Origin: Halostagnicola sp. A-GB9-2
GTDB taxonomy: Archaea > Halobacteriota > Halobacteria > Halobacteriales > Natrialbaceae
Assembly: GCF_030068615.1 (NCBI RefSeq)
Contig: NZ_JASJOC010000001.1
Coordinates: 744,001 to 808,000, forward strand
DNA: 64,000 nt
Reading direction: 5' to 3'
A model generated the notes under the pieces. That model was not told the DNA's origin. It was given only the letters and a program-made list of their open reading frames with translations, and searched no databases. This document shows positions 30,449-31,949 of this stretch, in pieces (positions within the stretch are counted from its first letter, which is position 1; the number at the start of each line of letters is the position of its first letter). The position numbers and the translations under genes were made by a program.

Positions 30449-30579
30449 CTCGAGTCCGTATCAAACGTATCTCTCGTCTATCGAGCGGTGACAGCCCATC
30501 TAGATGGCGCTGCTGAGATCGAAAGGAGGTTCCCCGTGTTCTCGTCGCTGTGAGCGTTCTGGGATTGCTACGCGCGGTT

Positions 30580-31456
30580 GGCTCTATTGAATCCCTCAAT
30601 TAGTGATAGGTTTCAGTAGTCGTGCTGAACACAGAGGATATATTCAGTATGGTTGGTTCATTCTATTCGGGCCTACATGTCCGGATAGGCCGTTCCTGCG
30701 AGTGCTGATTTATCAGCGGTTATGAGAGTAAGACTCGGTCAAACAATCCTGGATAATCAATAATGAGTCCATCCGAGTCAACAGGTAACTCGGCCGTGAA
30801 GCCACTGGATATGCTTTCATAGCGATACAATCCGCCATTCTCGTCGATTGGATCGAGGCAGGTGTACCTCTGAGAGACAGCCTCAATACGTAATTCGGGC
30901 ACTGTGATATATGCAATCTGCACCTCGGCCGACTCGTTTTGGTCGAGTTTTAAACGTCGAATTGGTAGTGTATTGCTGAACGGTGTTACTGAAATGTCCA
31001 CGTCAATGCATCCATTCAGTGCCGATACCTCCTCTCCTTGGCCATCTGCCCATTTGCCTCCACCATCGGCTCGAAGTGTTATTGATTCTGATTTCCGGCC
31101 GAGGGTGGCAATGTTCACTCGCTGAACGTGATATTGACGGTCGCATTCAACTTCGTAGTGGAGACGAAACGATGCGCCATCAACCGAACCAATGACGACG
31201 CTCTCAGCAACGATACCTGTTGAATCCTCGATGAGGTGTAGAGATTCTATCCCAACCCCGGCAACCGGTGACCAGAATATGTCTCGGTTCATACAACGGA
31301 CAATATTGTGGGTCTGGATAGCTATACCGTTTCACAGACTGAATTTTCGGTATCTACCGGTCTGATGCCGTTCCATCCAAACCATCTTCCGTACCACATT
31401 CGCGCTTTGTATTCAGCACACCGTTATTGTCAGGTTTGGAAGTTTTCAACAGAGCC
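30580..31456. mobile_element. Possible IS-derived element carrying a non-transposase gene
   Basis: GGCTCTATTGAA at 30580-30591 and TTCAACAGAGCC at 31445-31456 are inverted copies with one mismatch (11 of 12). About 40 bases inside each end there is a second matching segment on the inward-reading strands, GCTGAACACAGAG and GCTGAATACAAAG. The pattern, and the spacing of about 880 bases, looks like the termini of a haloarchaeal insertion sequence. The interior encodes the glycolipid-binding-family protein and no transposase. No target duplication is clear, so an old insertion or two separate remnants are alternatives. Confidence 0.45.
30720..31292 (-). CDS. Putative glycolipid-binding family protein (DUF1089)
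   Basis: The 190-residue protein matches the putative glycolipid-binding family (PF06475): SPVAGVGIESLHLIEDSTGI, RLHYEVECDRQYHVQRVNI, the highly conserved LNGCIDVDISVTPFSNTLPI followed by RRL, QRYTCLD, and SSGFTAELPVDSDGLIIDYP. The length is normal for the family, whose biochemical function is not settled. Codon use is plainly AT-richer than the flanking genes (for example AAT, ATA, TTA), suggesting acquisition. It sits between IS-like termini. Confidence 0.87.
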   Translation of the reverse strand: MNRDIFWSPVAGVGIESLHLIEDSTGIVAESVVIGSVDGASFRLHYEVECDRQYHVQRVNIATLGRKSESITLRADGGGKWADGQGEEVSALNGCIDVDISVTPFSNTLPIRRLKLDQNESAEVQIAYITVPELRIEAVSQRYTCLDPIDENGGLYRYESISSGFTAELPVDSDGLIIDYPGLFDRVLLS

Positions 31457-31474
31457 GGGCGTTTTGATCGTCGC

Positions 31475-31857
31475 TGCGAGCGTTCCTGCTCGCACGAGCC
31501 ACGATGAGGACCACATCCTCCCCAACCGATTCGCTCGTTCTCAGCTCACGGTGGTTCGAGAGACCGTCGGTCTCTCGTCATCAAGCGAACGCGTCCCGTT
31601 CGCGGACATCGCGAATCGAAGATTCGCTCAGTCACGAAACGGCCTGCCGTTTCGAACGACTTCGCCGTTCGCTGTTTCGCGACGCTACGCGTCGCGCTCC
31701 CCTCGCTCATCCACCGGAAGGCGCTTCGCGACTTCCAAGCCGTTCGGTCACCGAGTGACCGAAGACCTCGTGCATCATCGCGCCGCGGCTCGCAGCGGCT
31801 CACGGTTCCTGATAGTCACCGTTCGCTTCTCGAGGCCTTCACTCCGTTCACGCCTCG
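31475..31857. repeat. Array of at least 11 small perfect hairpins
   Basis: A non-coding stretch consists almost wholly of short palindromes. Stems I can pair exactly are: tgcgagc/gctcgca (31475-31494), gagga/tcctc (31506-31520), cgagagacc/ggtctctcg (31557-31577), gcgaacg/cgttcgc (31585-31603), gcgaatc/gattcgc (31611-31627), cgaaacggc/gccgtttcg (31635-31654), cgaacg/cgttcg (31653-31671), gcgacgc/gcgtcgc (31679-31695), ttcggtcac/gtgaccgaa (31743-31763), gccgc/gcggc (31782-31799) and cgaggc/gcctcg (31831-31857). Loops are mostly 2-6 bases. Its function is unknown; similar palindrome-dense stretches occur in other haloarchaea, to my recollection. Confidence 0.8.
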
Positions 31858-31949
31858 CTTCGTTCGCCGCGACGCAGCGCGCGCCACCGCAGACCAATCG
31901 ATTGGACCGGCGAGGCGTGGGTTATATTTCGATAAGAGGGCCGGGTAAC

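Follow-up and report, generated by a model that had tools for sequence, protein, structure and literature searches.

The DNA analysed here (the window) is a 64-kb stretch of the genome of Halostagnicola sp. A-GB9-2. At positions 30580-31456, without assignment to a strand, it carries an 877-bp element that contains no transposase gene, is classed as a non-autonomous cassette transposon and is the only full copy in this genome. A single gene is enclosed, on the minus strand at 30720-31292; its 190-aa product belongs to the Glycolipid_bind family (PF06475; Pfam E 3e-58) and has a relative in the PDB (2h1t, E 4e-29). The G+C content is 48% in the element versus 60-66% outside. The terminal 12-mers, GGCTCTATTGAA (30580-30591, plus strand) and GGCTCTGTTGAA (31445-31456, minus strand), stand 877 bp apart and are identical at 11 of 12 positions; scanning the window with one mismatch allowed returned just these two matches (0.26 expected). 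A second pair, GTGCTGAACACAGAG (30622-30636) and GTGCTGAATACAAAG (31405-31419, minus strand), shows 87% complementarity, and its scan of the window likewise returned two matches and none besides (0.12 expected).

The ends were also located independently with a sequence model built from 32 ends of other genomes, from which the window was left out to avoid circularity. Over the 64-kb window this model gave exactly two matches, precisely at both element ends: 30580-30651 on the left (57.5 bits, E 5.9e-17) and 31456-31389 on the right (53 bits, E 1.5e-15). The initial annotation had described 12-base inverted ends, a second matching pair about 40 bases further inside and an AT-rich PF06475 gene between them, and all three descriptions were borne out.

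Both ends are composite. According to the end alignment, the left outer end, of the 'long' type (30580-30621, plus strand), consists of a 24-bp transposon repeat, GGCTCTATTGAATCCCTCAATTAG, and 18 bp more, TGATAGGTTTCAGTAGTC. The right outer end, of the 'short' type (31420-31456, minus strand), was assigned from the end model and the pairing of long with short ends, and is made up of the 24-bp transposon repeat and 13 bp. The inner motif t1 (CGTGCTGAACACAGAGGATATATTCAGTATG; 30621-30651, plus strand) forms the left boundary of the cassette, as placed by the motif scan, the end model and the start of homology to Natronococcus, and the inner motif t2 (GTGCTGAATACAAAGCGCGAATGTGGTACGG; 31389-31419, minus strand) forms the right one, as placed by the motif scan and the end model. 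The unstranded flanking 8-mers, GCGCGGTT (30572-30579) and GGGCGTTT (31457-31464), match at 6 of 8 positions, a level reached by about 2.5% of random flank pairings; they are likely to be an old, decayed target duplication, though this is uncertain. An 18-bp direct repeat (17/18) also lies outside the ends, at 30542-30559 and 31468-31485; being 20 and 11 bp away, it is too far out to be the target duplication of this element.

The site is empty in two genomes of the same genus, where the glycosyltransferase and nucleoside phosphorylase genes are 46 bp apart with nothing between them. In the window the same two genes are separated by about 1.5 kb, taken up by the element and, on its right, a further stretch of some 500 bp. 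A part of these 500 bp is a dispersed intergenic repeat (31511-31890) with many 70-97% identical matches in the same genome and in others of the genus. The two remaining genomes of the genus showed no such glycosyltransferase gene beside the phosphorylase gene. The PF06475 gene takes different positions in other genomes and is therefore not syntenic. The initial annotation would have given up its reading for a syntenic gene without such ends in most relatives; the locus proved empty in two of them and the gene proved to lie elsewhere in others.

The cassette also occurs in a different setting. It is 89% identical to a Natronococcus array over 30621-31412, and the similarity starts precisely with the outermost base of t1. 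The PF06475 gene of Natronococcus sp. CG52 belongs to a plasmid array, where its neighbours are a gene of the dihydrofolate-reductase family and a hypothetical gene, and cassettes with this gene occur within junction-joined arrays of Natronococcus and one further genus. About 5-7 kb to the left of the window, the Halostagnicola genome has another cassette end and a lone inner motif (G000:C1:737265-738756), with one tyrosine recombinase gene on either side.

Elements with the same ends are widespread. When 125 genomes of the family were searched at the DNA level, 79 gave matches, mostly to the element ends only. Across the order, the end model had strong matches (E <= 1e-12) in 193 of 392 genomes, representing 60 of 95 genera. 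After exclusion of degenerate or doubtful pairs in L102, L161 and L124, there remained 53 usable inverted end pairs in related Halobacteriales, 256-5853 bp apart, with the same ends of about 60 bp; the elements without an inner junction have a median length of 877 bp. The target duplication is perfect (8/8) in 24 of the 53 elements and 7/8 in 13. When left flanks were paired with the right flanks of other elements as a control, 0.9% were identical and 1.5% agreed at 7/8 or better. The insertions in L196 and L210 split genes, since an open frame of 431 aa (L196) or 432 aa (L210) runs through the site once their flanks are joined. The L196 element (206-1530) is a cassette element with a perfect duplication inside a gene; by eye, the joined 431-aa frame resembles a PDDEXK_4 protein that is the cargo of the element L109.

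The cargo is mostly one gene per element and differs in almost every element. It includes genes for an HNH nuclease, CNNM, a PQQ-type lipoprotein, DUF2332, a PD-(D/E)XK nuclease, a CAAX protease and SelO, as well as saccharopine dehydrogenase-like and RibD-type reductase genes, a PAS kinase, MMPL and EamA transporters and many unknowns. The copies with other cargo for which the initial annotation proposed a search are thus numerous in related Halobacteriales.

A transposase related to fragments in the genome of the window is present in 93 of the 125 genomes of the family, and several of its copies are bounded by the same GGCTCTGTTGAAATCCT repeat with an 8/8 target duplication. In four elements, an IS5-type transposase gene lies between one full cassette end and an end of the transposase-side type, which has the same inverted repeat: L210 1449-2953 (GTCCAGGT, 8/8 duplication), L106 6827-8768 (AAAATTCG, 8/8 duplication), L230 591-2075 (CCTCGAGA, 8/8 duplication) and L094 14883-17929 (7/8 duplication). 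Three of the four transposases were scored against the curated IS5 model and reached 197-221 bits with a cut-off of 140; the two that were scanned for PF01609 (DDE_Tnp_1) both contain it. Since these four elements join a cassette-type end to an IS5-family transposase gene, the parent insertion sequence has been found. The truncated IS copies of the Halostagnicola genome were rejected as direct parents, as the sequence in common is only the first ~18-34 bp. The assembled copies of the transposase in this genome are fragments, so the window copy may be immobile now; some IS ends are situated at contig edges, and transposase copies may be missing from the assembly.

The window element and its relatives thus have IS-type inverted ends without a transposase, an unrelated passenger that varies between copies, ends in common with an autonomous IS, and a target duplication of the length of the parent IS (8 bp, in 24 of 53 relatives; 6/8 in the window copy). 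Its interpretation as a trans-mobilised cassette transposon, i.e., a mobile insertion cassette, is well supported. The view of the initial annotation, a transposon with a passenger gene depending on a transposase in trans, therefore seems essentially right but too modest, and the finding that it named as fatal, ends that never accompany a transposase, is contradicted by L210, L106, L230 and L094. Its alternative, gene replacement inside an IS, was apt in that cargo replacement recurs. What it missed is the probable role of the second pair, which appears to mark the limits of a cassette that undergoes exchange and inversion and is assembled into arrays.

Evidence for this role comes from the inner motif, which lies about 40 bp inside each end and is an imperfect palindrome of two forms, t1 (CGTGCTGAATACAGAGGATGAATGCAGCACG) and t2 (CGTGCTGAATACAGAGCGCGAATGTGGCACG). 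In 42 of the 53 elements, a single t1 and a single t2 accompany a long outer end and a short one, as long-t2/short-t1 in 24 and as long-t1/short-t2 in 18. As both combinations occur, the stretch from t1 to t2 lies in the transposon frame in either direction. This is illustrated by the CNNM cassette: in two copies that are 96% identical, t1 stands at the long end in L093 and t2 stands at the long end in L171. L171 and L174 are alike in site, 8-bp duplication and ends but not in cargo. In most well-aligned pairs of shared cassettes, homology ends 0-11 bp past the motif core, within the 11-bp outer arm; in a few it runs on to the transposon terminus. The same cassettes were found in more than one frame and facing either way, and they also turn up in tandem arrays.

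In the arrays, successive cassettes are linked by divergent motif pairs, t1 end to t2 end. Among the 48 such pairs less than 200 bp apart, the spacing is exactly 35 bp in 31 and from 33 to 36 bp in 38. The resulting junction is a conserved 103-bp sequence composed of a reversed t1, 35 bp and t2, without transposon ends; its t2 side reads CGC in 111 of 142 cases. A search of the order with the junction model was positive for 126 of 293 genomes, from 53 of 87 genera, with 135 sites in the genome G021 alone, and in a phylum-wide sample there was no match outside this order. In the arrays that were read, neighbours no more than 4 kb apart agree in orientation in 110 of 141 cases, and the median cassette length is 818 bp. 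Gene direction within the cassettes is mixed (43 same, 59 opposite). The 95 array cargo proteins with Pfam matches fall into 73 families, and a few are similar to proteins of restriction or defence. Covariation is seen between the inner arms of the junction, 25 cells having changed on both sides versus 13.5 (sd 2.7) after shuffling, with lower counts for slid versions, a count to be read with caution on account of the relatedness of the sequences. Elements with two cassettes, outer ends and perfect duplications (L163, L171 and L174) indicate that joined cassettes can transpose together.

Several explanations of the arrays were tried and rejected. Serial insertion of cassettes into each other, with target duplications at the junctions, was dismissed because a search for duplicated bases between the left and right junctions of one cassette gave no enriched common block. 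A structural RNA at the junction was also discarded: four junction-bearing loci had 0 Rfam matches, and folding energies were inconsistent (z from -4.8 to +0.6 in single-strand folding of five sequences, one of them incomplete). Viruses were rejected as carriers, since pattern scans of IMG/VR produced one match, which the junction model did not confirm. That the spacer simply unites the inner portions of one short end and one long end is not claimed here, the consensus sequences being only weakly alike.

An IS5-like gene in several array cassettes was considered as the array's own enzyme and rejected, because it belongs to a separate IS inserted into the t2 motif. This second IS5-like IS, observed in G021 (L252:6289-7968, L253:10350-13662, L254:2843-5587, L260:10655-12052 and L263:9334-10933), has the ends GGCC.TGTTTAGAC and encodes a 283-aa transposase. 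The three copies that were read occupy the same point of the t2 motif with an apparent 8-bp duplication, and in this they can be likened to elements targeting attC sites in integrons. Tyrosine recombinase genes were seen no further than ~130 bp from a cassette end or in the interior of an array region (G111:C1:1142131-1142697 and 3514550-3515107; G021:C1:3706358-3719952); they possibly mark genomic islands, or they possibly encode the sought recombinase.

The ends, the target duplications, the transposase elements, the recurrence of cassettes in different contexts and the regularity of the junctions can be brought together in a system of two levels. With fairly high confidence, the window feature is a transposase-less transposon with one cassette belonging to such a system, in which cassettes are exchangeable. 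At the first level, an IS5-family DDE transposase would move the 24-bp terminal repeat (GGCTCTGTTGAAATCCTC..) with an 8-bp target duplication. The enzyme would be supplied in trans by relatives in which its gene has a cassette end on one side and a transposase-side end on the other, and it would act on cassette ends. At the second level, the imperfect palindrome located 37-42 bp inside each end, t1 on one side and t2 on the other with a common outer half (CGTGCTGAATACAG), would delimit the cassette, usually one gene. The cassette could then change from one frame to another, turn round inside a frame, and be linked in head-to-tail series via the 103-bp junction. Both transposition and exchange are deduced here by comparing genomes. 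The exchange at the motif is presumably the work of a dedicated recombinase and not of general homologous recombination; the pattern is integron-like, and an integron-like mechanism is what it suggests. Tentatively, and with somewhat less than even confidence, we propose a haloarchaeal cassette system unrelated to integrons, in which a putative dedicated recombinase would excise, invert and integrate t1/t2 cassettes at the structured 103-bp junction, and IS5-family transposons with the same site would launch them to new sites.

The strongest competitor assumes plain MITE-like elements with passenger genes, the exchange and the arrays being products of RadA-type homologous recombination together with nested insertions and decay, and no cassette recombination system. 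It gains from ends that are repeated many times per genome, from exchange boundaries that fall within sequence common to all ends, and from the fact that no recombinase is tied to the junctions. Nevertheless, the junctions are free of the 24-bp transposon repeats, their spacer is fixed at 35 bp and has a conserved sequence of its own, and the polarity from t1 to t2 is uniform. Furthermore, the common stretch at the exchange point is just ~11-30 bp, and decay is not expected to leave one spacing across 53 genera. This explanation is unlikely, although it deserves serious weight. Far less probable is an identity of the junctions with integron attC sites, in which case the arrays would be attC clusters without integrase, served by an integrase of the IntI type. 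The RYYYAAC..GTTRRRY arrangement of R''/R' boxes appears in 1 of 143 junctions, with 0.74 expected by chance, cassette gene orientation is mixed, and the text of the paper reporting integrons in archaea (PMC9668308) has no word beginning with 'halo'; these points outweigh the tandem single-gene cassettes, the imperfect-palindrome junctions of ~100 bp, whose inner arms covary and which contain an internal mismatch region, and the archaeal report itself. Chance inverted repeats around an ordinary horizontally acquired gene would fit the imperfect target duplication of the window, and short repeats do arise by chance, but the probability of this is negligible given end-model matches with E 6e-17 and 2e-15, no third match in 64 kb, and target duplications across the whole family.

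The proposed cassette system matters because how single genes pass so freely between haloarchaeal species is an open question, and it would supply a concrete vehicle. It is present in roughly half of the genomes sampled from the order, with as many as 135 junctions in a single genome and cargo from dozens of protein families. It allows predictions as to which DNA is mobile, where cassettes start and end, and which transposase is responsible, and it could yield genetic tools for halophilic archaea. This large family of cassette transposons in salt-loving archaea is apparently undescribed: no description of such a system was found in the open-access literature, subscription journals lying outside the search, so that a prior description is possible. 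A 2024 review of MITEs (PMC10969869) does not use the words passenger and cargo.

Haloarchaeal insertion sequences of the IS5 family resemble the elements in their transposase, terminal repeat and 8-bp target duplication; the inner t1 and t2 motifs, however, are absent from pure IS ends. Haloarchaeal MITEs and the elements ISH2 / HqIRS32 (Haloquadratum, PMC3119063) are similarly free of transposase and have IS-like terminal repeats, and the ISH2 type contains a small non-transposase ORF. Only one MITE type of Haloquadratum has a likely coding ORF, with homologous ORFs in relatives (PMC3119063), whereas the haloarchaeal cassette elements differ in cargo nearly every time. Another analogue is MIC231 of IS231 (IS4 family, Bacillus cereus group), a transposase-less element with IS ends and an unrelated gene for which the transposase acts in trans. 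To judge from titles cited in PMC2266710, the IS231-MIC231 group has been described as modular, and a passage of this 2008 paper states that modularity of the IS231/IS4 kind had not been observed in other IS families. Unlike MIC231, the haloarchaeal element is archaeal, belongs to the IS5 family and makes an 8-bp duplication; its cassettes have a second, inner motif as a boundary and appear to be exchanged, inverted and joined in arrays.

The arrays have their nearest likeness in integrons (attC, CALIN), which have been reported in nine archaeal phyla (PMC9668308). In both, single-gene cassettes stand in tandem, each with one palindromic site, and both have imperfect palindromes of ~60-140 bp, diverse cargo and many loci per genome. 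The haloarchaeal arrays differ in having no R'/R'' boxes and a mixed gene orientation, and their cassettes also occur singly inside transposon ends. Interchangeable cassettes, single or in long arrays, would make this a gene-swapping system resembling bacterial integrons and, if a dedicated recombinase exists, an independent parallel to them.
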